This document shows, piece by piece, positions 1-25,266 of a stretch of 64,000 nucleotides of DNA. How positions within the stretch are numbered: position 1 is the first letter of the stretch; each line of letters begins with the position of its first letter. The notes under the pieces are model-generated. The model did not search any database. It saw only the letters and a program-made list of their open reading frames with translations, and was not told where the DNA came from. The DNA lies in the NCBI GenBank assembly GCA_025041175.1, contig JAKCFJ010000001.1, forward strand, positions 496,001-560,000. The letters run 5' to 3'. The position numbers and the translations under genes were made by a program. This stretch comes from Halobacteriales archaeon YIM A00010 (GTDB taxonomy: Archaea > Halobacteriota > Halobacteria > Halobacteriales > Haloarculaceae).

Positions 1-2
1 AC

Positions 3-659
3 GTGTCGTTTCACACGATGCACTGGGATTTCAACACTGCCCAACAGGAGCTGGAAACTCGGATCCTCGTCACCGGCGCGGATCGCGGCGCGCTGACCAA
101 CGGTTTCGAGGCGTTGCAACGCCACGACGGGATGATGGGGTTCGAGTTGCTCTCCCGGCGCGGGGAGACGGCCGTGATCAAATCGTCCATCGGCGAGACG
201 AACGCGATGGGGACGATCCGGAAACACGACGGCTACATCACCGGTCCGTTCCAGATCCGCGACGGAAGCGAGCGCTGGAGCGTCGGATTCGACACCGATT
301 CGGCCGCTGACGCCGCCCTGTCCGCCCTATCGACAAAGAACGATTTCAGGGTGGAGACCCGAAGCGACGCGTCGTTCGAGGAGTATCTCGACGTGATCCA
401 GCACATCGACGCAGCGAAAGGGTTTCTAGACGGGTGTCGAGAGCTTTCCGACACCGAGCGCCGGACGCTCCGAACGGCCGTGGAGATGGGGTACTTTCGA
501 ACCCCGCGCGATGCGACGCTCGAAACGCTGACCGAGGTGTTCGACATTTCCAAAACGGGGGTTTCGAAGAACCTGCGACGCGCCGAGCGGAAGCTCCTCG
601 AACGGACCGTTTCTCTCTTTCCGTCCGTCGAGGAGGACGACCGGTCCCGTCGGGAGTAA
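3..659 (+). CDS. Bat-type HTH-10 transcriptional regulator (start uncertain)
   Basis: Likely DNA-binding regulator of the haloarchaeal bacterio-opsin-activator (Bat) type. The last 60 or so residues hold the HTH_10 region: after LSDTERRTLRTA comes MGYFRTPRDATLETL and a recognition-helix stretch with SKTGVSKNLRRAERKL. The N-terminal 130 residues are an uncharacterised alpha/beta sensor-like part typical of such proteins. The listed start is GTG two bases into the window; an ATG five codons later (MHWDF) is an alternative, and the frame is open to the window edge, so the true start may lie outside. Nothing shows its target or ligand. Family assignment is firm, start is not. Confidence 0.75.
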   Translation: MSFHTMHWDFNTAQQELETRILVTGADRGALTNGFEALQRHDGMMGFELLSRRGETAVIKSSIGETNAMGTIRKHDGYITGPFQIRDGSERWSVGFDTDSAADAALSALSTKNDFRVETRSDASFEEYLDVIQHIDAAKGFLDGCRELSDTERRTLRTAVEMGYFRTPRDATLETLTEVFDISKTGVSKNLRRAERKLLERTVSLFPSVEEDDRSRRE

Positions 660-715
660 CACACGGACTGAGCAGGAAACCGAGATCAGACCAATCCGGT
701 TCACACCGGATCGAA

Positions 716-1168
716 TCAGGGTAGCCGCGTCGTTTCGACCGCGATATCGATGTGGGAAAGCGCTGGTTCCTCCCGGAGTGCTCGGACGATGTCGGCGTGT
801 GACTCCTGGGACCGCGTGCCGTACAGTTCGACCGACGTGGCGTCGTTTTCCTGCCACGCCACGGTCAGGCCGGCGCGCCGGAGCCGGGAGCCCTCTCGAA
901 GACGAACGCAGCGAATCGAATCGAGCGCGACCTCGAAGTTCCGATCGGCAAGCGTTAGCGCTCGCTCGGGGGTCGCGCGATCGACCTCCCGACGACCGCG
1001 TTCGCCGGTGTCCGCTCGCAGGAGGAGCGATTTGAACGACTCACCGACGAAACACCAGACGACACGGCTGTCGGTTACCACCAGCTCCCAGAACTCCAAC
1101 GACGTCGGCCGTCGCCGGAACCATCCCGTGAACCGCGCGAGGTCAGTTTCGTTCGAGTCCATCGTCAC
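716..1168 (-). CDS. conserved hypothetical protein, last gene of symporter operon
   Basis: A 150-residue soluble protein that I do not recognise. It has no signal peptide or membrane segment. The N-terminal part (FTGWFRRRPTSLEFWELVV...) followed by short beta-rich segments (SRVVWCFVGESFKSLLL, LTVAWQENDATSVELYG) suggests a PH-like or mainly beta fold, but that is only an impression. Its ATG overlaps the stop of the sodium:solute symporter gene by four bases, so it is translated with the transporter and could be an accessory or regulatory protein for it. Third gene of a leftward operon (3299 to 716). Confidence 0.7.
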   Translation of the reverse strand: MTMDSNETDLARFTGWFRRRPTSLEFWELVVTDSRVVWCFVGESFKSLLLRADTGERGRREVDRATPERALTLADRNFEVALDSIRCVRLREGSRLRRAGLTVAWQENDATSVELYGTRSQESHADIVRALREEPALSHIDIAVETTRLP

Positions 1169-2733
1169 CGTTCGATGAGGACAGCGATGTCAGCCGGAAC
1201 CGACCGACCGTCCTGGGTCGCCAACGACACGACGACGAAGAGGACGACGGTTACGAGCAGCGCGACCGTCCCGACGGGGAACGGAGCGGGGAACGGATAC
1301 AGCCCTGCGATCGTGTCAGCGACTCCCTCGAAACCGGCCGTCTCGGCGATTCGGGGCACAGCGCTGTAGAAGAGGTTGACCGCTAATCCGCCCAACAGCG
1401 CGACGATTGCGCCCTCTTTGGTTGCGCCCGTCCAGTTCAATCCGAGCGCCGCGATGGCGAAAAACGCCGCTGCGAAGAACCCCCACCCGATGGTGCCGAG
1501 GATGCCGACCAGCGTTTCCGAGAAGTAGACGATGAGCGTCGAGACGACGGTGATGCTGGCCAGGGCGGCCTGGGTCACTCGGAGTTCGGTCGTGTCGTTC
1601 TCGATCGGCCGTCCCAGCGCGCGCGGGAGATCCCGGGAGATGGCCGCCGCGCCGATGTTGAGAAACGAGTCGCTCGTGCTCATGATCGCCGCCAACAGCG
1701 CTGCCAGAATGAGTCCGGCCACGACGCCGGGCGTGTGTTCGAGCACGAACACCGGCCCGACGACGGAGGCGCTTTTCGGAGCCGCGGTCTGTCCGGCCTC
1801 GACCATCGCGCGCATCGACAGCCCGGCCGAAAACGCGATCAAACTCGAGATCGCGTACGTCACCGCGGCGATCGGTGCGCCCCACCGGAGGATGCGCAGG
1901 TTCCGGCTCATGTAGAACTTGGTTATCAGGTGTGGCTGTCCGGCCGTACCGATAGAGAACAGTATCCACCAGCCGAGCGCCGTGAAGATGGTCGCGGCCG
2001 GCGCATCCATGGCTCCGAACGGGGAAACGAACGCCGGATCGGCGCTCGCAAGCGATCGTGAAATGGACTCCATGCCGCCACCGAACGAGAGCGCGAAGGC
2101 GAAGACGAAGACCGAACCGACGATCATCGTGATGGCCTGGACGAAATCGGTCCAAACGCCCGCGATCATTCCGCCGAGCGTGCTGTAGGCCAGCAGGATG
2201 AACGCGCCGATGAATAACCCCCACACCACCGGCAGGCCGAAGATCGCGCGCATCACGTACTGCAACGCCGCGAGGTTGGTCGCGAGGTACGCCATTACGC
2301 CGACGATGACCGCGACGGCCGTCAGTCCGCGCACCCACGCGCTCTCATACCGGACGTACATCCCGTCTGCAAGCGTCATCACGTCCCGAACGTCCGCCAA
2401 CAGGCGCAGCCGCTTTGCCAGTAGCATCCACGCGACGACGAAGCCGAGTGGAGCGGTGAAAAAGATCCACAGCGCGGTCGTTCCGAACGAATAGACGAGC
2501 TCCGGTCCGCCGACGAATCCGAACCCGGACTGGATGACCGAGAACGCTGTCAGCGCGAGTACCCACGTGCCGACGCTCTTGCCGGTGATGAGAAAATCCG
2601 CCGTGCTCTCTGTTTGGAGGTAGCCCCAGACGCCGATCCCCAACACCAACGAAAGATAGACGCCACCGAACAGCAGCACGTACGGGCTGTCTGTGACCGG
2701 TATCTCCTGTAACGGAACGATCGGTACCGTCAT
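1165..2733 (-). CDS. sodium:solute symporter (SSS family)
   Basis: Integral membrane transporter of the solute:sodium symporter family, 522 residues, the usual family length, with about 13 hydrophobic segments. Family-like features include the N-terminal block LGIGVWGYLQTESTADFLITGK (SSS proteins have a similar loop after the first helix), GGMIAGVWTDFVQAITM in the middle, and LAAIMSTSDSFLNIGAAAI in the conserved sodium-site region. The substrate cannot be read from sequence; panthothenate, proline or carboxylates are possible in this family. It sits between a small membrane protein gene and an unrecognised soluble protein gene, both joined by four-base ATGA overlaps, which indicates translational coupling. 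Confidence 0.88.
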   Translation of the reverse strand: MTVPIVPLQEIPVTDSPYVLLFGGVYLSLVLGIGVWGYLQTESTADFLITGKSVGTWVLALTAFSVIQSGFGFVGGPELVYSFGTTALWIFFTAPLGFVVAWMLLAKRLRLLADVRDVMTLADGMYVRYESAWVRGLTAVAVIVGVMAYLATNLAALQYVMRAIFGLPVVWGLFIGAFILLAYSTLGGMIAGVWTDFVQAITMIVGSVFVFAFALSFGGGMESISRSLASADPAFVSPFGAMDAPAATIFTALGWWILFSIGTAGQPHLITKFYMSRNLRILRWGAPIAAVTYAISSLIAFSAGLSMRAMVEAGQTAAPKSASVVGPVFVLEHTPGVVAGLILAALLAAIMSTSDSFLNIGAAAISRDLPRALGRPIENDTTELRVTQAALASITVVSTLIVYFSETLVGILGTIGWGFFAAAFFAIAALGLNWTGATKEGAIVALLGGLAVNLFYSAVPRIAETAGFEGVADTIAGLYPFPAPFPVGTVALLVTVVLFVVVSLATQDGRSVPADIAVLIER

Positions 2734-3299
2734 CGTCGTTCCTCACTGTCGCTTTCGCTTTCACTCTCGGACTGTTTCGCCTCCCGACGCGGCGTGGACG
2801 GCTCACCGCCGTCGGCTTCGGGTGGGGACGGTGATAACGGATACCGTTCAGTCCGTTGTACTCGTCTCACATCGCTCATGATGTCGTTGATGACCCGTTC
2901 GTTCCCGATCGACGGGAAGACGAGGGCGTAGTACACCGCACCGAGGATCGGGAGCAACCAGAGGAAAACCACGTAGATCAACGTCGAAGCTGGCAGCCCG
3001 AGCACGTAGGTGTATTCGGTCGTGCCCGGCTCCCAGCGGAGCCAGATGCCCGTCAGCCCGATCACGAAGGTCGCTCCGAGACCGACCACCAACCAGGAGT
3101 ACGGCGCGAGATCGAGTTCCCTGTCGTTTCGTTCTACCGATGCAGCTCCCAGCACCGCGACGATGAACAACGCCGCAAAGTACGAGAACACGCGATACAG
3201 TCCTGTCGCCCCGGCGAGCAACAGGCCAACCGCGAGGAGGGCGATCGCGCCCATCATCCCATTCCGAGTTCTCCGCGTTTGTTGCTGTGGTGACTCCAT
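2730..3299 (-). CDS. small integral membrane protein, first gene of symporter operon
   Basis: A 189-residue protein with four to five predicted membrane segments (MMGAIALLAVGLLLAGATG, YFAALFIVAVLGAASV, YSWLVVGLGATFVIGLTG and a C-terminal pair) and a highly charged tail rich in Glu, Ser and Asp. I do not recognise the family. Small membrane partners commonly precede SSS transporters (for example DUF485 or DUF3311 proteins), but this one is longer and not clearly either. Start chosen at MESPQQQ because upstream reading is Arg/Ser-rich and lacks protein character. Its end overlaps the symporter start by four bases. Confidence 0.72.
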   Translation of the reverse strand: MESPQQQTRRTRNGMMGAIALLAVGLLLAGATGLYRVFSYFAALFIVAVLGAASVERNDRELDLAPYSWLVVGLGATFVIGLTGIWLRWEPGTTEYTYVLGLPASTLIYVVFLWLLPILGAVYYALVFPSIGNERVINDIMSDVRRVQRTERYPLSPSPPEADGGEPSTPRREAKQSESESESDSEERR

Positions 3300-3557
3300 T
3301 CTTCGATATACCAGGGAAGCAACGAGCGAAAAACGACGGGTTGATATGTGAACGATCCGCCGTACTCGGCCGCTGTAGGGCACAGAAGGCGGTGAACGAC
3401 GCGAGCCGGATCCACCGAGAACACTGTCTCGACGACATCTACAAGATAGTATAGATATCATTCATGAATGATTCGTTCGTGGGTGGGTGCGCACGTGGAT
3501 CCGTACAAGCAAGGATTTTTATCCGAGAGTTTCGTCAACATGCACAGTGGATGAGCC

Positions 3558-4142
3558 ATGTCCCCGAACGACATACGAGATGAACGTCGGACAGATGCCG
3601 AACAGCAGAATTCCGTCCGTCCGCGGATGAGACGGAGTGCCGCCACGGGGGAACTGGATGAGTCTCTCATCGAGTTACTGACATTTATGCTCGACACCGA
3701 CACTCGCGCCCGCATTTACCTGTATCTCCGGCAGCAGCCGGGAGCGACGAGCGACGAGATCGCAACGGGAACAGGGCTGTATCCGAGCACGGTTCGGGAG
3801 TCGCTCGCGGTGCTTCACGAGGAGGGCGTCGTCAGACGCTACGAGCGCGAGCTGAGTGGTACCGACGGTCCGTACGTCTACGAGAGCATCCCTCCCAAGG
3901 AGTTGGTGCTCGACATCCTCGAACCGATACAGGAGAAGCTAAACAGGGCGTTCATGCTCGACGAACTGCTCGGGGTCGACGGGGCCGATCGGGATCGAAC
4001 CCCGCGTGGGGAACCCATTCAGCGCCAGGCACGGGATCACGAGGAGGAGCAAGACGGGGAGCAGGATCGAGAGCGCGCCCAACAGCGGACCCCCATCACC
4101 GTTACCGTCACGGAGTCAGCGTTTCGCTCCGATGATCGGTGA
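3558..4142 (+). CDS. winged-helix transcriptional regulator (ArsR/TrmB-like)
   Basis: Residues about 35 to 120 form a winged helix: LLTFMLDTDTRARIYLYL, then PGATSDEIATGTGLYPSTV as helix-turn-helix, and a wing VVRRYERELSGTDGPYVYE. Such proteins occur widely in haloarchaea as transcription regulators. The last 45 residues change character to a Gln/Arg/Glu-rich string (QARDHEEEQDGEQDRERAQQR) unlike the rest, discussed as a finding. A TATA-like TTTTTATCC lies near 3514, roughly 25 bases before the region preceding the ATG. It precedes coaD by about 90 bases on the same strand. Confidence 0.72.
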   Translation: MSPNDIRDERRTDAEQQNSVRPRMRRSAATGELDESLIELLTFMLDTDTRARIYLYLRQQPGATSDEIATGTGLYPSTVRESLAVLHEEGVVRRYERELSGTDGPYVYESIPPKELVLDILEPIQEKLNRAFMLDELLGVDGADRDRTPRGEPIQRQARDHEEEQDGEQDRERAQQRTPITVTVTESAFRSDDR

Positions 4143-4229
4143 GGCAAACGAGCGGCCGGTTTGACAGATCGGGAGACGGTGTTGTGCGAGCCGAAGCCAC
4201 TAAGCCACGGGCGACGCATGACCGAACGT

Positions 4230-4721
4230 ATGCAAGTCGCGCTAGGGGGGACGTTCGATCCGGTTCACGACGGTCATCGGAAGTTGTTCGATCGGGCGTT
4301 CCAACTCGGGGCTGTCACAGTCGGTCTCACGAGCGACGAGCTGGCACCTCAAACCCGCAACGAAGAACGCCACATTCGTCCGTTCGAGGAGCGACAGCGC
4401 GATCTCGAACGCGAACTCGAACGGGCTGGTGATCGTTACGACCATCGATTCGAGATCCGACGGCTCGATGAGCCGACCGGTATCGCAACGGAGCCGGGGT
4501 TCGAGTATCTCATCGTCTCCCCAGAGACCGAACCGACCGGGAAAACGATCAACCGAATCCGGGCGGACCGAGGTCTCGATCCGCTCGAAATCGTTGTTGT
4601 CAACCACCTCGAAGCCGAGGACGGGGAACGCATTTCGAGCACGCGAATCGTGAAGGGTGAAATCGACGAGCACGGTGCCCTCACCCCAAAGCGACAAGGA
4701 CGACCGACCTCCGAGCAGTAA
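4230..4721 (+). CDS. coaD: phosphopantetheine adenylyltransferase, archaeal type
   Basis: Transfers AMP from ATP to 4'-phosphopantetheine, the penultimate step of coenzyme A synthesis. The nucleotidyltransferase signature is at the N-terminus: GGTFDPVHDGHRKLFDRAF, including the HxGH motif as HDGH, and the C-terminal ISSTRIVKGEID matches the family's ISSTRI block. Length 163 residues from the ATG at 4230 is normal for archaeal CoaD; an in-frame ATG at 4218 would add four residues. It is followed convergently by a TFB-like gene. Confidence 0.92.
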   Translation: MQVALGGTFDPVHDGHRKLFDRAFQLGAVTVGLTSDELAPQTRNEERHIRPFEERQRDLERELERAGDRYDHRFEIRRLDEPTGIATEPGFEYLIVSPETEPTGKTINRIRADRGLDPLEIVVVNHLEAEDGERISSTRIVKGEIDEHGALTPKRQGRPTSEQ

Positions 4722-4755
4722 CTGACGCCGGCTATGGGATCCAGCCGCTTTTTCC

Positions 4756-5064
4756 TCACCACTCCGGTGGTTTCAGTCCGGCCTCCTCGATGAGTCCTTT
4801 CCATCGTTGTTGGATTGTCAGCCGCGACACGCCGACCGCGTCCGCGACGGCCTTCTGTGACCGGCGGTCGCCTTCAATGAGCGCGCCGGCGTACAGACTA
4901 GCCGCCACGGTTGCGCGCTTCGATCGCTCGGCGTCGGGCACCGTCGATAGAAACAGATCGATCGCGCGCGCGCTAACCGTCGCATCGAGTTCCAACTGCT
5001 CGGCCGCCCGCTCGATCTCTGCGAGCCACCGCTGGTTTTCCACCTGCTCCCGGGCGCGGTACAT
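4756..5064 (-). CDS. short TFIIB-like (cyclin-fold) protein
   Basis: A 102-residue protein resembling one cyclin repeat of transcription initiation factor B: QRWLAEIERAAEQLELDATVSARAIDLF..., then RATVAASLYAGALIEG, and a C-terminal helix-turn-helix KAVADAVGVSRLTIQQRW. Full TFB has a zinc ribbon and two cyclin repeats; both the ribbon and one repeat are missing here. Such short TFB-family proteins occur beside coaD in haloarchaea. It could modulate transcription or simply bind DNA; no function has been shown from this sequence. Confidence 0.75.
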   Translation of the reverse strand: MYRAREQVENQRWLAEIERAAEQLELDATVSARAIDLFLSTVPDAERSKRATVAASLYAGALIEGDRRSQKAVADAVGVSRLTIQQRWKGLIEEAGLKPPEW

Positions 5065-5179
5065 GCTTGCTCTACCGTTTCATCGGTTATGATCGGAGTA
5101 AAACTTTGTGAGGTGTGATAGCACGAATAGCCGTGAGTAACGACAGGCTTTTTTCACCGTTCGTTGTACCTCCGGGTGC

Positions 5180-5263
5180 GCGTGGGTAGCCAAGCCAGGA
5201 AACGGCGCAGCGCTTAGGACGCTGTCCCGTAGGGGTCCGCCGGTTCAAATCCGGTCCCACGCA
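5180..5263 (+). tRNA. tRNA-Leu(UAG)
   Basis: An 84-nt type II tRNA with a long variable arm. Acceptor strands GCGTGGG and CCCACGC pair fully; the anticodon stem CAGCG/CGCTG encloses the loop CTTAGGA with anticodon TAG; the T-loop is GGTTCAAATCC. The 3' CCA is not encoded. No intron is present. An accessory segment begins just downstream, but I found no second copy of the tRNA 3' end nearby. Confidence 0.96.
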
Positions 5264-5304
5264 TTTCGATACTTGTTATCCAAGTGATTCTCACACCACT
5301 ACTA

Positions 5305-6470
5305 TCAGAACAGGCCGTCGGTCGTCTCCGCGTTTCGGATACTATCGAGCGTCGTATATCGAAGGCTCTGTGGGTATTTGCTCTCGTAGGGAATCGGGTC
5401 TTCCAGCTCGTAAAGAGATCCTGATTCGAAGGTCACGACCATTTTGTCGTCCGCTATCTTGGCTCGATCTTTGTAATCAAGCGGTTCCCGCAGCAGATCG
5501 GCCTCTTCGGGTGTGACTACGGTATCAACCGTTGCGAAGTATTTCACTGATCGAACGTCGCGGGTAACGTACATCGCCACGTAATCGAATTCACTTCCGA
5601 TTCGGACGAAACCCCACGCTTCGTTCTCCTTGAGAAACGGAAGACCAGATTCCGAACAGGAAATACCGCTACTTTCGCGTCCGGATCGCCGTCGATTTCG
5701 TTCCGATCTATCTTCCCCTTCACATGGTTCTCAAGCGGCTCAATCTCACCGGAACCGTCCGATTTCTGTGATTTGGAGGGGGGTGCTTCACTAACGAACT
5801 GTCGTTGCTCTCCGAGCACCGAGACGAGGTTTTGGACGAACTCACGGGCCTGTTCTTCGAGATCGATCGGCAGCTCATCGACCTCGTTCTCGACAGTCGT
5901 GGCGATGGATTCGCTAACGCTGTCCTCGTTCTCTCGAAGACACCGGATCGTTCGATTCGTCTGTGCGACTTATTCGGCTATCTCGTCTGATTTTCCCGAG
6001 CGGATCGACTCTTTGGAAAGCAGTTCCAACACGCCCGGATTCTCAGTGAGATCGTCGAGATCGAACTGAACCACCGATACTTCCTCCCCGTCGTTCCGAG
6101 AGCGGCTCTTGGTTAGCACCTCGAACGACCGTCCATTCGTGAGGATCCCCCAGTCGACATCGAGCTCCTGTCTCATGTAGCTGCGCAACTGCTGGACGTT
6201 CCCGTCGGTGAGCGTAGAGCGAACGGGCTTTGCCTCCACGAACACGACGGGGGTCTCCCCAACGAGAAGCGCGTAATCGACGTGGGTGCTCCCGGAGGCC
6301 ATCGGAACCGTGTATTCTAGCGCGACTTCAGTCGAGTAGAGATTCCAACCGAGCAGTTCGAGAAACGGCTGTACGAGCTTGATCTTCGTGTTCTGTTCGT
6401 CCATCTGTGGTGACGATTCGATGAGCTGCTGGCACCGCCCGACGTATTCCGTGATCGCGTCCCGGTCCAT
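5305..6470 (-). pseudogene. HsdR N-terminal-domain protein, interrupted by a stop and a frameshift
   Basis: Reads as a roughly 385-residue protein with a type I restriction HsdR N-terminal (PD-D/ExK nuclease) domain: MDEQNTKIKLVQPFLELLGW, then HVDYALLV and VVFVEAKPV with the Asp and Glu-x-Lys catalytic residues. An in-frame TAA at 5970-5972 stops the first part (a CAA Gln codon would restore it), reading continues in the same frame to about 5648, and then a one-base shift moves to the frame of 5305-5580. The ATG at 6470 is supported by a TATA-like ATATAT about 27 bases upstream (leaderless type). No HsdM or HsdS is near, so even when intact it was a stand-alone gene. Confidence 0.8.
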
Positions 6471-6735
6471 TAGCCACTCATCGGACAGCGTGCACACATA
6501 TATCGTATGAAAAAGGCGCAATACTGCTAATTCAACGGCAACCCCCTACCCACCGAGCACGCCGAAGCCGAACAGCGGGCCAAAGAGCAGATGTAACCCG
6601 ATCCCGACGAGGAGCGCGGGGACGGTGGTGTAGATAGAGGCGATGACGGCGGCTTTTTTGTCCATCGCAATCAGCGGGAACAGCGCGTCCCCGTCCTGGC
6701 TGATGGCGTTGGCAGCGAGCGCCGGGAAGGGGAGA
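6343..6735. repeat. 0.39-kb direct repeat, copy A
   Basis: Nearly identical to 10866-11260. It spans the 5' third of the HsdR_N gene, the 70-bp gap and the 3' end of the 10-TM exporter gene. In this copy the HsdR_N gene continues while the exporter gene is cut. Differences are few (for example an indel near 6535 and scattered substitutions), so the duplication is recent or kept similar by recombination. Confidence 0.9.
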
Positions 6736-6896
6736 CTCTCTGGATGGTACACATGTGTTGAGAATATAGCTGGTTCGTCGTCCTCATCGAGCCAGAGAGG
6801 CGTGATCGCAGAGGGTGCGATAGGTCGACTCCAGATCTCCGTGGCTGGTCCATCGTCCATATCTTCCGATACGCTATTTACTAACTGATTAGTCAA
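6546..6896 (-). pseudogene. chimeric ORF ending in a copy of the exporter C-terminus
   Basis: The last 60 codons are almost identical to the C-terminus of the intact 10-TM exporter (11071-12324), including ALAANAISQDGDALFPL and the tail FGPLFGFGVLGG. The first 56 codons are unrelated, Asp/Glu-rich and not recognised. The junction falls exactly at the edge of direct repeat A (about 6735), so the ORF is a by-product of the duplication. It has two membrane segments and could be expressed, but a working transporter is not possible. Confidence 0.75.
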
Positions 6897-6953
6897 ACGA
6901 CTTGAGGACTAGTACACCCGATAGCGCGCCCACGCAACCGTCTGTATTCATCT

Positions 6954-6968
6954 ACTCAATTGATGAGT
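6954..6968. promoter_or_regulatory. inverted repeat upstream of TetR gene, possible operator
   Basis: The sequence ACTCAATTGATGAGT has arms ACTCA/TGAGT around a 5-base centre. A perfect palindrome GACTAGTC follows at 6976-6983. Both lie 55 to 85 bases upstream of the TetR start, and TetR regulators usually bind such sites near their own gene. Binding itself is inference. Confidence 0.35.
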
Positions 6969-7038
6969 CGATACTGACTAGTCGGATCTAACGAGTGAGT
7001 CACAACTATTATCTGATCTCCAACAGATCTATTACACA

Positions 7039-7656
7039 ATGGCTGATCCGCCGGAACACACAGCCCCGGATCCAAACGAGGAGATCATGCGTGCGACCTA
7101 CCGGGCGCTTCGAAAACACGGATACGCCGATCTCACGATCAAACGGATCGCTGAAGAGTACGGCAAGTCGACCGCTGCTATCCACTACCATTACGAGACG
7201 AAAGACGACCTGTTGGCAGCGTATCTAGATTATCTGCTCGACCAGTTTGTCGATACCGTTCGGGACATCAAAACGACCGATCCCGAGGAGCGGATGGAAT
7301 TGCTGCTCGACAAACTGCTCGTCGATCCAGTGGACCATCAGGATATGTTGATCGCGATGTTGGAGATGCGGAGTCAAGCGCCGTACAAGGAGGCGTTCTG
7401 TGAGCGGTTCCAGCAGAACGACGAGTACACCCGGTATATGCTCAAGGCAGTCATCAACCACGGGATTGACGAAGGAATATTCGAGAATGTCGACGCCGAA
7501 CACGCGGCACGCGCATTAATGATAATTGTTGACGGCGCCCGAACTCGAACTGTTGTCCTTGATGAGGAGGATGCGCTGGCGACAGCCAGACGGACCGCTG
7601 ACGAATACGTAACTGCCATCCTATCGACCGAGGAAGCAGCAGATGGAATAGAGTGA
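7039..7656 (+). CDS. TetR/AcrR family transcriptional regulator
   Basis: One-component regulator of 205 residues. The TetR DNA-binding domain is clear at residues 14 to 62: EEIMRATYRALRKHGYADL, TIKRIAEEYGKSTAAIHYHY and the following YETKDDLL. The C-terminal helical domain would hold the ligand and dimer interfaces; it resembles the BetI/AcrR-type C-terminal domains of haloarchaeal members. TetR genes usually sit next to an efflux pump; here none is adjacent, and the next gene rightward is a sulfatase 460 bases away. It is the leftmost gene of the block enclosed by the 0.39-kb repeats. Confidence 0.9.
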   Translation: MADPPEHTAPDPNEEIMRATYRALRKHGYADLTIKRIAEEYGKSTAAIHYHYETKDDLLAAYLDYLLDQFVDTVRDIKTTDPEERMELLLDKLLVDPVDHQDMLIAMLEMRSQAPYKEAFCERFQQNDEYTRYMLKAVINHGIDEGIFENVDAEHAARALMIIVDGARTRTVVLDEEDALATARRTADEYVTAILSTEEAADGIE

Positions 7657-8120
7657 CGAGTACGTCTGCGCTGTAACAAATTATTGGCCGATGGCGTTGG
7701 ACTCGCCTAGATGTGGAGGGAGGGCCAGGACGATGAATGGTTGTTTGAAATACCATAATAGTGTTTTCATTGATGGTGGATCGTGTTGGTATATACCCGG
7801 TGACTCAGCGCTCACATTACTCACAGGAACACAGTGGGTGAATGAGGCCTCCGATACGGTGTTAGTGATTCAACGTTAGAGCCACGTACGAACGTTCTCC
7901 ATCGGGCACACTACTACTCACAACACACAACTCGTCAAAGAAACCGAAACTATAAAGACGACAACTAACCGTCTAATTAGTATCGTAGCAGTGATCTTGG
8001 CTAACGGACAGTGGATGTTCACACTCCCTCCTCTCCAGCGAATGGACTGGCCGCAGTCACCGCCTACTGATTGGAGAGCTATTGCTTGAACGAGGGTAAA
8101 TCGACGTAGTACCAACGAAT
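7657..8120. other. 464-bp intergenic region, no gene seen
   Basis: A/T-richer than the flanks. A 62-codon ORF (7691-7879) has Cys/Trp-containing, non-acidic content unlike the surrounding proteins and no promoter that I can see, so I do not call it. The right end serves as the upstream region of the sulfatase operon. No tRNA, hairpin series or repeat was noticed. Confidence 0.5.
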
Positions 8121-9545
8121 ATGAGTGTCACAGATATATCGAACGTCGTCCTCATCACGGTCGACTCGCTTCGGGCAGACGCAATCGGTCCGTACGACGA
8201 GAACCGCCACACACCGGTGATGGATGCTCTCGCCGAGCGTGCAACCGTGTTTGATAACGCTTTCGCGACCGGAAACTGGACGCCGTTTTCGTTTCCATCG
8301 ATCCTGGGGTCACGGCCAGTGTTCGCCGATACTGGACACATCGGCGTCGATAGATCGTCGACACTCTCGGCGGTGCTGTCGGAAGCCAACGTCTTGACGG
8401 GTGGCTTCAATGCCGCGAACGGATTTCTTACCTCACATTGGGATTACGATGCCGGATTCGACGAGTTCGAACCGTTTGTTGCCAGTATGGGATCTAGTAT
8501 TTATAGTCGCTATCTGGCGAGACATCCCACTGTCGAAGCGTGGCTTCAGTTGGTGACCTCCCCCGTTCGCCGCATCAGTTCGTGGCTCCGCGGGGAAACC
8601 GACGATCGGCCGTTTCTCGATACGTCCCGTATGTTCGATGTCGAGCACGCCGCGACATCGTTCATTGAGGAGGCGGAAACCCCGTTCTTCCTTTGGGTCC
8701 ATTACATGGATACGCACACACCGTACGTCCCCGCCCCCCGCTATATCCGTGACGTATCGTCGGATCTACTCGGCACACACCGAATGTTGCATGCACACAC
8801 CCGAACTGGCCTTGGCAGGAATGTCGGTAAGCGAACGCTCAGGGACCTTCGCACCCTCTACCAGGCAGCAGTCCGACAGGTGGATGCCAGCATCGGTCGT
8901 CTTCTCGGTACGCTCTCGTCGAACGGCATCGACGAGGAAACTGCCGTTATCGTGGCAGGCGACCACGGCGAGGAGTTCCAGGAGCATGGTCATCTCGCAC
9001 ACTATCCGAAACTATACGATGAACTGATCCGGATTCCACTCATCATCGATGTTCCCGGTACGAACGCTCGCTGGATCGATCGCCAGGTCGGTCTCGACGC
9101 GATTCCGCCCACAGTAGCTGATATTCTGAACGTCGAGCCGCCGACCGAGTGGCAGGGCGATACCCTCACACCAAGCATCTTCGAAGGCGATGACCCTGTC
9201 GATACTCCCGTCGTTTCAGTTACCGTACGCGGTGAGGAGGTAACAGCACAACCCATCCCTCGCTCACTCGCGGAGGGTGATCTTCTCGTAAGCGTTCGAA
9301 ATCAGGACTGGACCTACATCGAGAACGTCGACGAGGGAAGGAACGAACTGTATTACCGTCCTTCCGATCCGACTCAGCAGGAGGATCTATCGATTGATCC
9401 AACCACAGAGGAACAACGCCTGATCGAGCAGTTTGGTTCGATCGTTGAATCGCACGCTAGCACGCTCCGCAACCGGGAACGGGATACGGCGGACGACATC
9501 AACGACGAGATCGAGACACGACTGGAGGCACTGGGTTATCGATAG
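8121..9545 (+). CDS. sulfatase / alkaline phosphatase superfamily hydrolase
   Basis: A 474-residue metal-dependent hydrolase of the sulfatase fold. The N-terminal VVLITVDSLRADAIGPY carries the first metal-binding Asp, and VIVAGDHGEEFQEHGHLAHY holds the Asp-His-Gly metal ligands. The position expected for the Cys/Ser-x-Pro-x-Arg formylglycine motif reads NWTPFSFPSILGSR, so no standard formylglycine site is visible; phosphoglycan or phosphoethanolamine-type activity is as likely as sulfate ester cleavage. No signal peptide is seen. The stop codon abuts the ATG of a GtrA gene, so the two form an operon, suggesting a role in cell-surface glycan modification. Confidence 0.86.
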   Translation: MSVTDISNVVLITVDSLRADAIGPYDENRHTPVMDALAERATVFDNAFATGNWTPFSFPSILGSRPVFADTGHIGVDRSSTLSAVLSEANVLTGGFNAANGFLTSHWDYDAGFDEFEPFVASMGSSIYSRYLARHPTVEAWLQLVTSPVRRISSWLRGETDDRPFLDTSRMFDVEHAATSFIEEAETPFFLWVHYMDTHTPYVPAPRYIRDVSSDLLGTHRMLHAHTRTGLGRNVGKRTLRDLRTLYQAAVRQVDASIGRLLGTLSSNGIDEETAVIVAGDHGEEFQEHGHLAHYPKLYDELIRIPLIIDVPGTNARWIDRQVGLDAIPPTVADILNVEPPTEWQGDTLTPSIFEGDDPVDTPVVSVTVRGEEVTAQPIPRSLAEGDLLVSVRNQDWTYIENVDEGRNELYYRPSDPTQQEDLSIDPTTEEQRLIEQFGSIVESHASTLRNRERDTADDINDEIETRLEALGYR

Positions 9546-9971
9546 ATGCTTGGAACGTTCCTTTCCGATCTCCACAGTGGCCTGATTACGCCACAGCTGC
9601 GACGGTTCGTCGTCGTCGGGACCGCCGCCGCCGGAGTGCAGATGGTACTGCTCTGGGCACTCGTCGATACTCTCGGCCTTAATTACTTGCTCGGTGCACT
9701 GATCGCCATCGAAATCACAATCATTCTTCAGTACAATCTCAACAACGCCTGGACATTTCAGGCAACACAGAATACTGGTGTCGCTGCGTATCTCATTGGG
9801 TTGCTCAAAACCAACGTTGTCCGTGGATCGGCAATACCGATCCAGCTCGCTCTTCTCTTCCTTTTCGTTGAGTTGCGGAACATTCCGTATCTAGTGGCCA
9901 ACGCGATCGCTATCGTTCTTAGTGGGTTGTATCGGTACGTGCTCGACGCACGATGGACATGGGGACAATAA
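9546..9971 (+). CDS. GtrA family membrane protein
   Basis: A 141-residue protein with four membrane segments, matching the GtrA/DPMS family: LRRFVVVGTAAAGVQMVLL, LNYLLGALIAIEITIILQY with following NLNNAWTF, and a C-terminal LSGLYRYVLDARWTW. GtrA proteins are thought to help move lipid-linked sugars across the membrane. Its ATG follows the sulfatase stop codon directly, with no spacer. The pairing supports polyprenyl-linked glycan work, though neither glycosyltransferase nor flippase is adjacent. Confidence 0.88.
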   Translation: MLGTFLSDLHSGLITPQLRRFVVVGTAAAGVQMVLLWALVDTLGLNYLLGALIAIEITIILQYNLNNAWTFQATQNTGVAAYLIGLLKTNVVRGSAIPIQLALLFLFVELRNIPYLVANAIAIVLSGLYRYVLDARWTWGQ

Positions 9972-10067
9972 TAACAGGAAATTGTTATCTATACCAGATG
10001 GTGAATATCGTGAGTGAATACCGATCGACCGTACAACGGAATACACTACATGTGATCTTTTAATTAT

Positions 10068-10625
10068 ATGTTGTTAATATCGTTACTTACGTTCGAGTTC
10101 TCGATCGCCTCCTTCACCCAGAGTCTCGAGGCACTCGTTGAATCAGCAACAGGCTGGCCCGGTGTGGGCATTATCTTCATATACTCGTTTCTGATCGCGT
10201 TCGTACTTCCTGGTCCGAGCGAGATCGTACTGATCGCGCCGCTCGATCTTGGTCTCCCGCCGTGGATGCATCTCTCGAGTATTATGTTAGTGAGTGCGAT
10301 TGGAAAGGCCGCCGGGAGCGTAGTCGCGTTCCATATCGGCCAAGAAGTCAAACGATCTGGGCCAATAATTCAATGGATACGGCGCTCCAGATGGGGTGTA
10401 CTAGAATGGTCGGAGCAACGTTCCGTACAGCTCGCACAGCGCTACGGCTACGGTGGTCTTGCGATAGCTTTGTCCGTCCCGTTCTTTCCCGACACAATCT
10501 CGATCTACGCATTTGCTGTGCTGGAAAAGAACTATACGAAATTTGCTTTGGCGACGTTTTTCGGGAGCCTGGGGCGGCTCATGGTTACAGTTGGATTTTT
10601 TGGAGGACTCTCTATGACGTTTTGA
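10068..10625 (+). CDS. VTT/DedA-type membrane protein
   Basis: A 185-residue membrane protein with the SNARE-associated (VTT, DedA-like) pattern: FLIAFVLPGPSEIVLIAPL with the conserved Pro-Glu region, then MLVSAIGKAAGSVVAFHIG with the Gly-x-x-x-Gly character, and a C-terminal ALATFFGSLGRLMVTVGF. DedA relatives act as lipid flippases or scramblases, including for polyprenyl phosphate. Together with the sulfatase and GtrA genes this suggests a small envelope-glycan module. About 100 A/T-rich bases separate it from gtrA; a TTAATTATA run just before the ATG may be its own promoter region. Confidence 0.8.
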   Translation: MLLISLLTFEFSIASFTQSLEALVESATGWPGVGIIFIYSFLIAFVLPGPSEIVLIAPLDLGLPPWMHLSSIMLVSAIGKAAGSVVAFHIGQEVKRSGPIIQWIRRSRWGVLEWSEQRSVQLAQRYGYGGLAIALSVPFFPDTISIYAFAVLEKNYTKFALATFFGSLGRLMVTVGFFGGLSMTF

Positions 10626-10792
10626 GGCGCGGAATTCGACCGAGATCACTGCTTCTATTTCTTATATAATAGTGTTGTTGAGATAACTCGTATCATCACC
10701 GGGCCGGTACTTGCCACAGATACAGTGTCACAGGATGGAGTCAGTGAGCCAAATTCTACTGAGAAGTATCAGACACCGATGACAGTCATCAA

Positions 10793-10993
10793 CTATTTCT
10801 CGTATCCAGCAAATCGTGAAGCGATTTGCGCGACCCCGAAGTTCTCGGCCTGTATTCTTTCGAGGTTCCAACCGAGCAGCTCGAGAAACGGCTGTACGAG
10901 CTTGATCTTCGTGTTCTGTTCGTCCATCTGTGGTGACGATTCGATGAGCTGCTGGCACCGCCCGACGTATTCCGTGGTCGCGTCCCGGTCCAT
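10793..10993 (-). pseudogene. 5' fragment of HsdR_N gene (in repeat copy B)
   Basis: The first 42 codons from the ATG at 10993 match the HsdR_N protein at 5305-6470 (YVGRCQQLIESSPQMDEQ and PFLELLGWNL). At 10866 homology ends and the frame runs into unrelated codons before stopping. It has no catalytic residues. It is the truncated partner created by the duplication. Confidence 0.82.
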
Positions 10994-11260
10994 TAGCCAC
11001 TCATCGGACAGCGTGCACACATATATCGTATGAAAAAGGCGCAATACTGCTAATTCAACGGCGATCCCTCTCACCCACCGAGCACGCCGAAGCCGAACAG
11101 CGGGCCAAACAGCAGATGTAACCCGGTCCCGACGAGGAGCGCGGGGACGGTGGTGTAGATCGAGGCGATGACGGCGGCTTTTTTGTCCATCGCAATCAGC
11201 GGGAACAGCGCGTCCCCGTCCTGGCTGATGGCGTTGGCAGCGAGCGCCGAGAAGGGGATG
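10866..11260. repeat. 0.39-kb direct repeat, copy B
   Basis: Second copy of 6343-6735. Here the 10-TM exporter gene is intact and the HsdR_N gene is cut. The two copies are in the same orientation and enclose 6736-10865 (about 4.13 kb). Together they imply that exporter and HsdR_N genes were once adjacent. Confidence 0.9.
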
Positions 11261-12324
11261 CTCCCCTGGGAGTAGGCGGTTGCGAGCACGATCTGTGGGC
11301 CACAGCCGGGGATCAGTCCCAGCCCAGCACCGGCAACCGGCGCGAGCAGCCCGGCCGCGGCAGCGATCCCGGCGATGTCGAGCGAGAACAACGCGACGCT
11401 GTACTCGTAGACGAGATACGCGGCCAACACCCAGACGGTGACGAAGGAGGTTTCCATCGCCGCGTGGGTGAACGCCTCCCTCGCGCTGTCGACCGCGTCG
11501 GTCGCTTGCTCCAGCCGTCCGTGGCCGATGTACCGCCGGCCGACAAAATACAGGTAGAACGAAAGGACGGTCCCCACGACGCCCAACGCGGTGAACGCGC
11601 CGGCGAAACTCGCGTTCGCAACCAGCGCCACTTCAGGCGCGCCGCGCGCGAGATACGCCACGCCTACGACGAGCGCACCGACGGCGACCACCCACCACAG
11701 CGCGAGCGCGCCGTTGCTCAGCCGTTTCATGACGGGGGATTCGTGCGTCGCTGGCTCGTGGTCGCAGCTCTCACCGGGGTAATGGTGCACCTGACTACCC
11801 ACACCAGCGGGAGTGTTCGTGCTCTCTGACTGCGCAACCCTCCCGCCGTTGGTCACCACCCCCCCATCGGTTGCGGTGGGATCGAGCCGGCTGACCGCCC
11901 GATCGATGCGGTCAACGCCGAACCCAAACTTGTCAACGGCGTACCCCGAGATGATCGCCACACCGAACCCGATACCGTAGGCGTACAGCGCCGCTTCGGG
12001 AGCGAGCACTAGGATGACGAACGCCGAATCACCCGCCGTGGCGATGAGCGTCGCAACCACCGTCCCGAACGTCACGCTGCCACGAATGTACAACGGCATC
12101 ATGACGATTGCACCCCCACAGCCCGGCGTCAACCCCATCAACGCACCGACCACCGGCTGAGCGCGGCGGTTCGATTCGAGCCGTTCGATCAACCGGCCGT
12201 CGGTTCGGTGCTGTACGTAGCTGAACAGAAATACCGTGATCGCAACGAACGCGCTCACCTGCACGAACCCGTCACGAACCGAGAGGACGAAAATCTCCCA
12301 CAACTCACCGACCACGGGAATCAC
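11071..12324 (-). CDS. putative 10-TM metal exporter (ArsP_2 / putative manganese transporter type)
   Basis: A 417-residue membrane protein built from two similar halves, each with a Gly-Pro-Gly-Cys-Gly motif: GALMGLTPGCGGAIVMMP near residue 95 and GLGLIPGCGPQIVLATAY near 330. A charged, His-containing loop lies between the halves. This pattern fits the putative heavy-metal exporter family PF11449; members are annotated as manganese or arsenic transporters on weak evidence. The start is GTG. An inverted repeat overlaps the promoter position upstream (12352-12367), consistent with metal-responsive control. Its last 60 codons are duplicated at 6546-6735. Confidence 0.78.
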   Translation of the reverse strand: MIPVVGELWEIFVLSVRDGFVQVSAFVAITVFLFSYVQHRTDGRLIERLESNRRAQPVVGALMGLTPGCGGAIVMMPLYIRGSVTFGTVVATLIATAGDSAFVILVLAPEAALYAYGIGFGVAIISGYAVDKFGFGVDRIDRAVSRLDPTATDGGVVTNGGRVAQSESTNTPAGVGSQVHHYPGESCDHEPATHESPVMKRLSNGALALWWVVAVGALVVGVAYLARGAPEVALVANASFAGAFTALGVVGTVLSFYLYFVGRRYIGHGRLEQATDAVDSAREAFTHAAMETSFVTVWVLAAYLVYEYSVALFSLDIAGIAAAAGLLAPVAGAGLGLIPGCGPQIVLATAYSQGSIPFSALAANAISQDGDALFPLIAMDKKAAVIASIYTTVPALLVGTGLHLLFGPLFGFGVLGG

Positions 12325-12351
12325 CGCGCCAACCAGACGAATTAGCCATGT

Positions 12352-12367
12352 CTAAATCTATCTTTAG
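12352..12367 (-). promoter_or_regulatory. inverted repeat at exporter promoter, possible metalloregulator site
   Basis: Arms CTAAA and TTTAG flank a 6-base centre, 28 to 43 bases before the GTG of the exporter gene, where a TATA box would lie. Read on the minus strand it begins TTAGGCTAAAG, similar to one half of DtxR/MntR-type sites. The match is partial. Confidence 0.35.
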
Positions 12368-12433
12368 CCTAATATCATAAATAACCATCGGATGGGGAAC
12401 AGATTCCTACGGCTGCATTCGAGGCGACGGATC

Positions 12434-12976
12434 TCAAAGAAGTCGGATATCGGTATCGGCCAGTTCCCCAGCGAGCCGTCTGCCGTCGATGATCGTGATC
12501 GAATCGGCGACCGATCGCGCCCGAAACACGTCGCGCATCGCGGTTTCTGCGCCCACATCGGCCATCAGGATCGTCACAGTTGTCACCTCTTGATCTGTGG
12601 TGAGTAGCTGCACCGCGAGTCCTGCAAGCGCAGTATCCGTTTTCTCGACCGCGTCATCGCGGCTGTTTGCCCGTTTGGCCATTCGAGCTCGAACTGCATC
12701 CATCACAGCAGCAACGTCGGAATTCGTGTAGTCCAGAGTCGGTGCAGGTGTCAACCATCCTTGATCGATTGCCGCACGGACGCGTGTTCGCTGGGTGGCG
12801 TACTGTGGAGGACTTTCGTCGAGTTCCTCAAGAACCCGGCGAGGAAGTTGGAAGACGTGATCCCGTTGTGTTGCATATTCGGCGAGCGCCTGAAATTTTT
12901 CGTTTTCCGGCCCACCGACCGCGATAAGAACACTTGAGTCGATGATGACCGTGCTATCCGGATCGATCTTATTCAT
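12434..12976 (-). CDS. PIN-like domain protein, toxin candidate of wHTH-PIN pair (copy 1)
   Basis: A 180-residue PIN-fold protein. The N-terminal VIIDSSVLIAVGGPENEKF supplies the first acidic residue, RRVLEELDE the second, and AVEKTDTALAGLAVQLL the third, as in PIN ribonucleases. It is clearly homologous to the product of 43638-44153 (shared blocks KFQ.LA, P.RV.EEL, LDYT.S.VA.VMD, EK.DTA). Start taken at MNKIDPDS, which overlaps the upstream winged-helix gene by eight bases; the longer reading would add a non-acidic stretch. The arrangement suggests a toxin-antitoxin-like pair, with this as the nuclease. Function is inferred. Confidence 0.8.
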   Translation of the reverse strand: MNKIDPDSTVIIDSSVLIAVGGPENEKFQALAEYATQRDHVFQLPRRVLEELDESPPQYATQRTRVRAAIDQGWLTPAPTLDYTNSDVAAVMDAVRARMAKRANSRDDAVEKTDTALAGLAVQLLTTDQEVTTVTILMADVGAETAMRDVFRARSVADSITIIDGRRLAGELADTDIRLL

Positions 12977-13562
12977 CGGTCCGCGTAACCTCGTCCATGT
13001 CGAAATACGGATCGTGTTCGACAGCGTCGGCCAACACAGTCCGAAGAGCAGTAACAATTGTGACACCTTCGATAGGGTGGAGATCCATCTCGCGCGCCGC
13101 CATTCGTTGTGTGATTTCTCCTCTGTGATTGGCCGCTGCGTAGTCGATAGCCGCAGCTAACGCTGCGAGTCCGTTACGCTCGACAAACGTCGTGATGTCC
13201 TCATTCTTCCGTTGATACGTCCGCCCAACAGCATCGATGAGAACCGGTGATACCTCGTACACACCGTGGTCCGACTGGACTCGAAGATGCACCGGCTCGA
13301 CGGTTACTTCCATCGGCTCAGCCGTCTCGTTTTTTGTTAACACGCCTAGTTCTACCAGATGATTTACATCCTTGTACACGGTCGAGCGGGCCATCTCGCT
13401 TTCCGTGATGGTTCGATCGACCGTCGTCGGTCCTTGCTGTAAGAGGTGCGTATAGAGCCACGCAAGGCGTGGTTCCCACAGTAGTTCCATTAACGAGAAC
13501 AGATCGGTAACGGTTGCCTCTGTCCCGGTTGCTGTCTGTTCTCTCTGAGAGACATTGATCAT
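12969..13562 (-). CDS. winged-helix protein, partner of PIN protein (copy 1)
   Basis: A 197-residue protein. Residues 20 to 90 form a winged helix: LMELLWEPRLAWLYTHLL, a helix-turn-helix around ITESEMARSTVYKDVNHL, and ELGVLTKNE leading into the wing. A second domain follows (YEVSPVLIDAVGRTY ... FVERNGLAALAAAIDYA ... REMDLHPIEGVTIVTALR). It is homologous along its length to 43105-43632, whose neighbour is also a PIN gene. Being first in the operon and DNA-binding, it probably represses its own promoter and neutralises the PIN protein, by analogy with VapB, though it is not of a VapB family. Confidence 0.8.
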   Translation of the reverse strand: MINVSQREQTATGTEATVTDLFSLMELLWEPRLAWLYTHLLQQGPTTVDRTITESEMARSTVYKDVNHLVELGVLTKNETAEPMEVTVEPVHLRVQSDHGVYEVSPVLIDAVGRTYQRKNEDITTFVERNGLAALAAAIDYAAANHRGEITQRMAAREMDLHPIEGVTIVTALRTVLADAVEHDPYFDMDEVTRTDE

Positions 13563-13679
13563 TGTATCTCTAGTCTATAGATGAGAGACGATAAACTTTC
13601 TCCGCCACTATACCCCAGCAACGTTCGAGCGTCCTTTCCCAACCGTAGCACAGTAGTGCCGTGCTGGCGGAGTGTAGGT

Positions 13680-14873
13680 ATGTCCGAAGCGTACGTAGTC
13701 GGGGCGGGGCAGTCGGATTTCGGCTCGTTTCCCGACGAGAGTTACCGGTCGTTGTTCACGACGGCCTACGGGAACGCGCTCGACAGCGTTCCGAGCGGGC
13801 TTTCGACGGAGGAGATCGATGAGGCGTACATCGGCACTCTCGGGGTCGGTGGTCGACAGCTCGGACTGTCCGGGCCGGCGGTCACCGAGCACGTCGGGCT
13901 GGATGGAGTTCCGTGTACGCGCGTGGAGAACGCGTGTGCTGCGGGGGGATACGCCGTTCGCCAGGCCGTGATGGCGGTTCGGTCGGGGATGGCGGACGTC
14001 GTTCTCGCGGGTGGGTTCGAGGTGATGACTGACGTGTCCGGTGAGTCCGTGCGGTACTGGCTGGGCGTCAGCGGCGAGACCGAGTGGGAACGGCTGTCGG
14101 GGACGACGTTCGCCGGCGTGTACGCCCAGATGGCGCGCGCGCACATGGAAGCGTACGACACCACCGCCGAACAGCTCTCTCGCGTGGCGGTGAAAAACCA
14201 CGACAACGGCGCGAAGAACCCCCACGCACACCTGCAGTTCGCGTGTTCGCTGGAGGACGCCCGGACAGCACCGACCGTTGCGGATCCGCTGACGCTGTAC
14301 CACTGTTGTCCCACGACGGACGGGGCCGCGTGTGCGCTCGTCGTGAGCGAGGACGTGGTCGACGAATACACCGACGACCCCATCCGGATCGCCGGCGTCG
14401 GTGCTGCGAGCGACGCGGTCGGTCTCTTCCAGCGCGAGACGTACACGGGGATCCCCGCGTCTAGGCGGGCCGCCACCCGGGCCTACGAGACGGCCGGGAT
14501 CGGCCCGGACGACGTGGACTTCGCGGAGGTACACGACTGCTTTGCGATCGCGGAGCTGCTGGCCTGCGAGGATCTGGGCTTCTGTGAGCGCGGGGAATCC
14601 GGGCCGTTCGTCGAGAGCGGCGCGACAGCACTCGATGGGGAGCTTCCGATCAACACGTCCGGCGGGTTGAAGTCCAAGGGCCACCCGATCGGCGCGACCG
14701 GCACCGGACAGGTCGTCGAAGCGTTCGAACAGCTGTCCGACCGCGCCGGCGACCGGCAGGTCCACGAGCCGCGGTACGGACTCACCCACAACGTCGGCGG
14801 CAGCGGCGGCGCGGCAGTGGTACACGTTTTCGAACGCGAGGACAGGGGGGACACGACGGAGGTGGAACGGTGA
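13680..14873 (+). CDS. thiolase-family acyltransferase (SCP2/archaeal type)
   Basis: A 397-residue thiolase. Catalytic features are present: the nucleophile Cys in RVENACAAGGYAVRQAV, the HDCFAIAE block, GHPIGATGTGQ with the catalytic His, and THNVGGSGGA replacing the Cys-Gly motif of bacterial thiolases, as usual in SCP2-like and archaeal enzymes. Likely reaction is acetoacetyl-CoA formation or cleavage, or another beta-ketoacyl-CoA. The ATG at 13680 (MSEAYVVGAG) fits the family start. Its TGA overlaps the ATG of a synthase/DUF35 fusion gene, so the two are coupled and probably form a complex. Confidence 0.88.
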   Translation: MSEAYVVGAGQSDFGSFPDESYRSLFTTAYGNALDSVPSGLSTEEIDEAYIGTLGVGGRQLGLSGPAVTEHVGLDGVPCTRVENACAAGGYAVRQAVMAVRSGMADVVLAGGFEVMTDVSGESVRYWLGVSGETEWERLSGTTFAGVYAQMARAHMEAYDTTAEQLSRVAVKNHDNGAKNPHAHLQFACSLEDARTAPTVADPLTLYHCCPTTDGAACALVVSEDVVDEYTDDPIRIAGVGAASDAVGLFQRETYTGIPASRRAATRAYETAGIGPDDVDFAEVHDCFAIAELLACEDLGFCERGESGPFVESGATALDGELPINTSGGLKSKGHPIGATGTGQVVEAFEQLSDRAGDRQVHEPRYGLTHNVGGSGGAAVVHVFEREDRGDTTEVER

Positions 14874-24009: not shown

Positions 24010-25266
24010 ATGTCAGGATCCGGTGTTTCACAGCCTGATTCGAACTCGAACAGCCGAGCTGGTTGTGGGGCGTCCGTTGGTGGGAACGCGCTCGTGAGCC
24101 GTCGACGCCTCCTTTCGGGCCTTGTTGGAGGTGTGGCCCTTCTGTCGGGGTGTAGCGATCTCATGGGTAGCAACGGAACGGACACGCCGTCGACCTCGAC
24201 CGTCTCCCCCACGGCGAACGGAACCGAGAACGGGGAGACAGCTACCGACACCGCGTCACCCACGGAGACGCCGCCCACGGACAGTGATCCGCGTTTGGAG
24301 ACGTACACCAACAGCGAGTACGGCTACCGCGTCCAGTATCCGGCGGAGTGGTCCGTCGACGAAAATTCGCCCACGAAGACGGTATTCCGGGCGGAGGATA
24401 ACATGGCCGTGATCGAAGCCAGGGTGCCTGGTAGCCCCGGCCAGGATGAAACGCTCGATGAGGTCGTCGAGACGGCGCTCTCGTCGACTCGCCGCCGAAT
24501 GGACGATGTGGAGGTGTTGGACGAGCAAGAGGCGACGCTCGAAAGCGGCGAACCGGCACGCGTCTCCCAGATCCGGTACGACAACCCGAACGACAACGCG
24601 GGGATGATACGGAGCAGCTACCTCGTTGCGCTGGCCGAGGGTCTCGTTTACGAACTCGAGTTCGCGATGGAGGACGCAGAGCACACCGAAGCAGACGAGC
24701 AACTCGCCACTGCGATCATCAACTCGTACGAGATCACCGGACAGCAACCGGACGGTCGTCAGACGACTGATCAGTCGACCGAAACGGAGACGAACGACAC
24801 CGACGGTCTCCCCCCGTTAACGACGTACACTAACAGCGAATACGGCTATCGCGTCCAGTATCCGGCGGAGTGGTCTGTCGACGACAGCGCGCCCACGGAG
24901 ACGATATTCAGGGTGGATGATGATACGCCCGCGCTCGAAACCAGGATTCGCAGTGTCCCCGACGACGCGACGACGTTGGACGAGGTCGTCGAGGTAGCAC
25001 TCTCATCGAGTCGCAGCCGAATGGACGATGTGGAGGTGTTGGACGAGCAAGAGGTGACGCTCGAAAGCGGCGAACCGGCACACGTTATCCAGTTCCGGTA
25101 CGACAACCCGAACGACAGTGGGGGGACGTTACGGACCACCTACCTCGTTACGCTAGTCAAGGGTCTCGCTTACGAGGCCGAATTCGTGCGGGAGGACACC
25201 GAGTACACCGAACGGGACGAGCGGCTCGCCGCCGAAATCGTCAGCTCGTACGCGCTCACCGGCTAG
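24010..25266 (+). CDS. Tat-exported lipoprotein with two tandem PsbP-like domains
   Basis: A 418-residue secreted lipoprotein. Twin-arginine signal SRRRLLSGLVGGVALLSGC ends in a lipobox Cys; then a Thr/Ser/Asn-rich linker. Two closely similar domains of about 140 residues follow, each beginning YTNSEYGYRVQYPAEWSVD and containing RMDDVEVLDEQE and a RYDNPND block. The pattern resembles PsbP/DUF1795-like domains seen in surface proteins. The ATG at 24010 is preceded by a TATA-like TATACTAT about 25 bases upstream. The two copies are also very similar in DNA, indicating a recent internal duplication. Confidence 0.82.
   Translation: MSGSGVSQPDSNSNSRAGCGASVGGNALVSRRRLLSGLVGGVALLSGCSDLMGSNGTDTPSTSTVSPTANGTENGETATDTASPTETPPTDSDPRLETYTNSEYGYRVQYPAEWSVDENSPTKTVFRAEDNMAVIEARVPGSPGQDETLDEVVETALSSTRRRMDDVEVLDEQEATLESGEPARVSQIRYDNPNDNAGMIRSSYLVALAEGLVYELEFAMEDAEHTEADEQLATAIINSYEITGQQPDGRQTTDQSTETETNDTDGLPPLTTYTNSEYGYRVQYPAEWSVDDSAPTETIFRVDDDTPALETRIRSVPDDATTLDEVVEVALSSSRSRMDDVEVLDEQEVTLESGEPAHVIQFRYDNPNDSGGTLRTTYLVTLVKGLAYEAEFVREDTEYTERDERLAAEIVSSYALTG

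Follow-up and report, generated by a model that had tools for sequence, protein, structure and literature searches.

A four-gene block lies between two copies of a gene junction

We analyzed a 64,000-nucleotide stretch from Halobacteriales archaeon YIM A00010, referred to here as the window (C1:496001-560000). The genome comprises 5.97 Mb in seven contigs, and the contig that contains the window, C1, is 2.86 Mb long. The features of the locus are listed in Table 1.

Table 1. Features of the repeat-flanked locus in window coordinates. G003 and G005 are genomes of the same genus.
Feature	Position	Strand	Basis or remark
HsdR_N-domain gene, pseudogene	5305..6521	-	In-frame stop and frameshift; intact (392 aa) in G003 and G005
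Left repeat copy: HsdR_N 5' part, intergenic stretch, exporter 3' fragment	6339..6733		Exporter part has most derived changes
Block left edge: 73-bp fragment of a multi-copy haloarchaeal gene of unknown function	6739..6812	-	Five other places in the genome, 76-81% identity
TetR family regulator	7039..7656	+	Pfam TetR_N, TetR_C_6
Sulfatase-superfamily hydrolase	8121..9545	+	Pfam Sulfatase, 5.5e-33
GtrA-like membrane protein	9546..9971	+	Pfam GtrA_DPMS_TM
VTT-domain membrane protein	10068..10625	+	Pfam VTT_dom
Block right edge: dispersed end with 9-bp hairpin stem, like the right end of an IS200/IS605-type TnpB element	10795..10861	+	About 20 places in the genome
Right repeat copy: truncated HsdR_N 5' part, intergenic stretch, exporter 3' end	10862..11258		Repeat alignment
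ArsP_2-type exporter gene, 10TM, complete	11071..12324	-	Pfam ArsP_2, 9e-113; NCBIfam arsenic efflux

The direct repeats enclose about 4.13 kb, and their alignment spans 397 columns with 97.2% identity. A search of the whole genome found no third copy. When 2.46 Mb of C1 was scanned for unique direct-repeat pairs, this pair was the longest two-copy direct pair with more than 90% identity, and a chance origin of the repeats is therefore excluded. In each copy, the exporter gene contributes its 3' end and the HsdR_N-domain gene its 5' end, and the two are joined. The whole exporter gene (417 aa) is present only to the right of the block, and the 3' continuation of the HsdR_N gene, which is a pseudogene, only to its left. 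A sequence-only reading had placed near-identical repeats at 6343-6735 and 10866-11260, which is right to within a few bases. Its assignment of TetR, sulfatase, GtrA, and VTT genes to the enclosed segment agrees with Pfam, and its description of each repeat as an exporter end joined to an HsdR_N start was borne out by the gene content. An assembly artefact is hardly credible as the source of the repeat pair, since the copies differ at about 13 sites, have distinct flanks, and lie in a contig of 2.86 Mb.

The block differs from its surroundings in base composition. Its G+C content is 0.528, compared to 0.607 in the left flank and 0.64-0.655 in the right flank, and the GC3 values of its genes are 0.58-0.64 vs. 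0.73-0.83 in the core neighbours tested. The same arrangement of TetR, sulfatase, GtrA, and VTT genes, with order and direction conserved, is present in Natronomonas aquatica, Halorubrum cibi, Halopenitus persicus, and Halorubrum aquaticum. Among the 80 operon loci fetched, the sulfatase-GtrA pair was nearly universal, and none of them showed the window's flanking-gene arrangement around the operon homologues. Composition and gene order indicate that the block is a foreign haloarchaeal operon. The closest relatives of the sulfatase protein are only 72-75% identical, showing that the operon donor was not sampled. Known plasmids were also considered as the donor and were rejected: sulfatase relatives on haloarchaeal megaplasmids reach at most 72% amino acid identity, and none is close.

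Congeners carry a single-copy junction without the block

Positions 1-6731 of the window, and again those from 10862 on, are collinear with the genomes G003 and G005, and the block is absent from both genomes. Each has a single copy of the junction, with the intact HsdR_N gene directly adjoining the exporter gene, and nothing is missing at the window site relative to them. If one repeat and the block are taken out of the window, the gene order is exactly that of G003 and G005. The earlier observation that such a removal makes both genes neighbours agrees with this comparison. In none of the other genus members compared was the right edge of the block joined to the junction.

Of 397 aligned sites, 13 distinguish the repeat copies from each other, compared to 93 differences from G003 and about 102 from G005. 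This corresponds to approximately 3% between the copies vs. 23-26% to the congeners. Provided that no gene conversion masked an older age, the duplication is therefore recent and took place on the lineage of the window's genome. With the same proviso, these divergences rule out an ancient, genus-wide duplication.

The block ends in scraps of other sequences and lacks element genes

The edges of the block are scraps of other sequences. At the left edge lies the piece of a multi-copy gene family given in Table 1. The right edge (approximately 66 bp) has its matches dispersed over the genome, and the longest of them stop within a few bases of the repeat start. The folding energy of its hairpin is unremarkable in comparison to shuffled sequences (z -1.28). 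One other copy of this edge (in L032) is located at the 3' end of a TnpB-like ORF, for which the Pfam match is weak and below the cut-off. We infer that the right edge resembles the right end of an IS200/IS605-type element; the truncated HsdR_N copy begins directly after it. An IS200/IS605 unit carrying the operon was rejected as an explanation, because the right-end-like scrap stands alone, with no left end at the other edge. A known RNA at the block edge was also dismissed: an Rfam search over positions 5000-14000 gave one tRNA, which lies outside the block.

According to Pfam, no integrase or replication gene is present among the four genes of the block. An integrase-borne element (ICE, provirus, or integrated plasmid) was rejected, since only the TetR, sulfatase, GtrA, and VTT genes lie inside. 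A transposon was rejected as well: the duplication is 395 bp long and not short, the edges are scraps, and there is neither a transposase nor a shared end. We also considered a small integrating element with an attachment region of approximately 395 bp, or a TnpB nuclease acting in trans and guided by the sequence beside the IS-like end. Such an origin would suit the IS200/IS605-like right end abutting the repeat and the genes left whole at both ends, as with target-restoring integrases. We nevertheless regard it as very unlikely, because the block lacks an integrase, a transposase, a replication gene, and a common end, because operon homologues occur in other contexts without these flanking genes, and because the other two repeat-flanked inserts of this genome (see below) share neither ends nor genes with the block. 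We saw no sign that the block is mobile.

The locus resembles the product of insertion-duplication

Target sequence that is present once in relatives flanks the insert as repeats, which is the outcome of single-crossover insertion-duplication. The block thus looks like DNA that was trapped by insertion-duplication without destruction of a target gene, and like an accidental capture rather than a mobile element. The most fitting name for the locus is natural insertion-duplication; it represents a variant of a known process and not a new system.

In our preferred history, to which we give an even chance, a linear fragment was closed to a circle by illegitimate joining and was integrated by a single crossover. 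The starting point would be an allele in which an IS-type end cut off HsdR_N, with the operon next to it, on a linear fragment. The broken ends of this fragment, one in the multi-copy gene and one in the exporter gene, would then be ligated, giving a small circle with the 395-bp junction. One homologous crossover in this junction would bring the circle into the chromosome. In the product, the exporter gene would be complete on one side and the HsdR_N gene whole on the other, with the block bordered by dead remnants of both genes. Afterwards, selection would keep or lose the operon, and if it were lost by recombination between the repeats, the original site would be recovered exactly as it was.

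This history is preferred because of the IS-end joint and of an experimental precedent in Escherichia coli, and not because of proof in the sequence. When linear DNA with one homology was used in E. coli, a duplication PCR product was obtained from 56 of 60 recombinants, and the 14 sequenced recombinants had 109-950 bp duplicated, which was explained by re-ligation and a single crossover (PMC3240628). In this Campbell-type integration of non-replicating or re-ligated DNA, as at the window's locus, a foreign insert lies between direct target repeats (PMC3240628). The E. coli events took place in the laboratory with plasmid DNA, whereas the event in the window is natural and archaeal and is deduced from its end product only. 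The sequence-only reading had proposed the single-crossover integration of a 4.5-kb circle. Its topology fits, as does the empty single-copy site in congeners; the circle as an element is not supported, given the lack of replication and integration genes and the broken scraps at the edges. Since the block is without element genes, its edges are scraps, and other routes give the same product, the integrated circle is the preferred route and not a demonstrated one.

One of these other routes is direct capture. Here, the chromosome would break in a staggered manner, or a polyploid cell would suffer breaks in two of its chromosome copies at points 395 bp apart; fill-in and end joining to a foreign fragment would then duplicate the stretch between the breaks. 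The outcome is the same as that of a 395-bp tandem duplication that trapped foreign DNA at its junction. The tandem duplication that had been named as the alternative to the circle would therefore give the same product if it captured foreign DNA in this way; it is ranked below the circle. Direct capture requires only two illegitimate joints, and both are seen, each at a scrap of another gene and each with short similarity (TCGAG at the right, CTGG at the left). Integration of a circle needs one step more, and neither a circular form nor a donor with the same right joint was found. In addition, indels are numerous in haloarchaea, as are deletion-coupled insertions of foreign DNA (PMC3119063). 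However, it would be unusual for fill-in to duplicate 395 bp around a 4-kb insert, we found no direct archaeal precedent for this, and the right joint at an IS-like end suggests that this joint pre-existed. We therefore consider direct capture a possible route, but lean against it.

The insertions described in Haloquadratum walsbyi are deletion-coupled, with loss of target DNA (PMC3119063). They are similar to the window's block in that foreign DNA lies in a haloarchaeal chromosome without a recognised element. They differ in that target DNA is lost, whereas the window's locus gained it in the form of long flanking repeats.

The differences between the repeat copies were polarised using G003 and G005. 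In the HsdR_N half, all three changes are derived in the truncated copy on the right. The exporter half has six changes derived in the left copy (the fragment) and two in the right copy (the intact exporter gene). Altogether, nine derived changes fall in dead fragments vs. two in intact-gene copies (one-sided P 0.03), the other sites being ambiguous or at the repeat end. With integration of a circle, such an excess is expected, because the copy either was nonfunctional already in the circle or lost its function upon integration. From one end of the repeat to the other, the derived changes pass from the right copy to the left copy, with the switch located between repeat positions 116 and 202; decay of dead fragments predicts the same. 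Decay following the event accounts for the pattern just as well as a donor copy that was dead beforehand, combined with a crossover in this interval. The pattern is not specific to the circle: fragments that merely decayed after direct capture would show the same pattern.

Two further loci in the genome have a similar structure

The scan of C1 revealed two further loci that resemble the window's. At C1:1577652-1578859 (L192:17652-18859), two 194-bp copies of the mutY 3' end (99.5% identity) flank an 820-bp insert with low G+C content. By eye, the insert gene is PIN-like; it gave a weak DUF3368 match only. The downstream region is rearranged, making the empty site less clean. At C1:662242-665025 (L147:2242-5025), 170-bp copies of the 3' end of an Lrp-type gene (90% identity) flank 2.4 kb with a TnpB gene. 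The empty site of this locus was found in G003. In G005, the block is present with the same right joint, but the whole gene and the left repeat are absent; its allele is either of the donor type or the result of a later deletion. All 17 differences between the two repeat copies lie in the first 99 of the 170 bases (P about 1e-4), and this clustering suggests a conversion or crossover tract.

The G005 allele bears on another route to the window's locus, homology-facilitated illegitimate recombination of linear DNA or a two-haplotype hybrid. Here, a donor allele consisting of the block, truncated HsdR_N, and exporter gene would have been joined homologously at the right and illegitimately at the left. 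Such recombination likewise gives one homologous and one illegitimate joint, with trapped foreign DNA and gene remnants beside it (PMC3240628, PMC5361080), and has been proposed to leave remnants of displaced genes at Vibrio T6SS loci (PMC5361080). The locus at C1:662242-665025 speaks for this route: in G005, the block with the same right joint lies by a truncated gene and the left repeat is missing, whereas in the window's genome the complete gene is present upstream as well. However, G005 may have undergone a later deletion there, and no relative of this type is known for the window's locus. Moreover, homology-facilitated recombination usually deletes target DNA on the illegitimate side, whereas the target in the window is duplicated and the comparison with G003 and G005 revealed no such deletion. 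We consider this route improbable.

The two additional loci suggest that the capture route may recur in this genome. The three loci differ in their ends, their ages, and their genes, and do not define an element. A broader reading, which we find doubtful, is that the genus repeatedly gains small cassettes by natural insertion-duplication (via a circle and a single crossover, or via capture at a staggered break). This would leave a class of inserts flanked by 0.15-0.4-kb copies of gene ends, with the site here possibly set by an IS200/IS605-type end. If the process is natural and recurrent, haloarchaea would gain small operons without a mobile element and with their own genes unbroken. Its signature would be a low-G+C insert together with a unique pair of long gene-end repeats, which would be datable since dead fragments accumulate changes.

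Two other repeat pairs in C1 were rejected as cases of the same structure. The pair at 1492307/1496451 is a fragment inside a larger insertion, and the repeat of the pair at 1037354/1039543 belongs to a family that is multi-copy in relatives. The latter locus (C1:1037354-1039909; L256:7355-9910) has 367-bp direct repeats (96.5% identity) around a 1.8-kb insert with a methyltransferase-like gene, and several neighbouring copies of the repeat family are present in congeners. Repeat pairs of 82.9% identity with short inserts were also noted at C1 1029978/1030833 and 1175201/1176483. Among the genomes used, G002 and G006 each contain a contig of 3,915,224 bases, in which the matches have identical coordinates; G006 is larger and is rated 9% contaminated.

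Within the window, positions 12386-13634, just upstream of the exporter gene, are a second low-G+C (0.55) insertion relative to G003 and G005. No long flanking repeats were seen there. It holds two overlapping genes, by eye those of a PIN-type protein and an HTH partner. Elsewhere in the window, adjacent 441-bp direct repeats with 80.5% identity and a spacing of 522 bp are located at 24300-24740 and 24822-25262, and direct repeats of approximately 155 bp with 75% identity lie 3.2 kb apart at 43708-43865 and 47053-47204.
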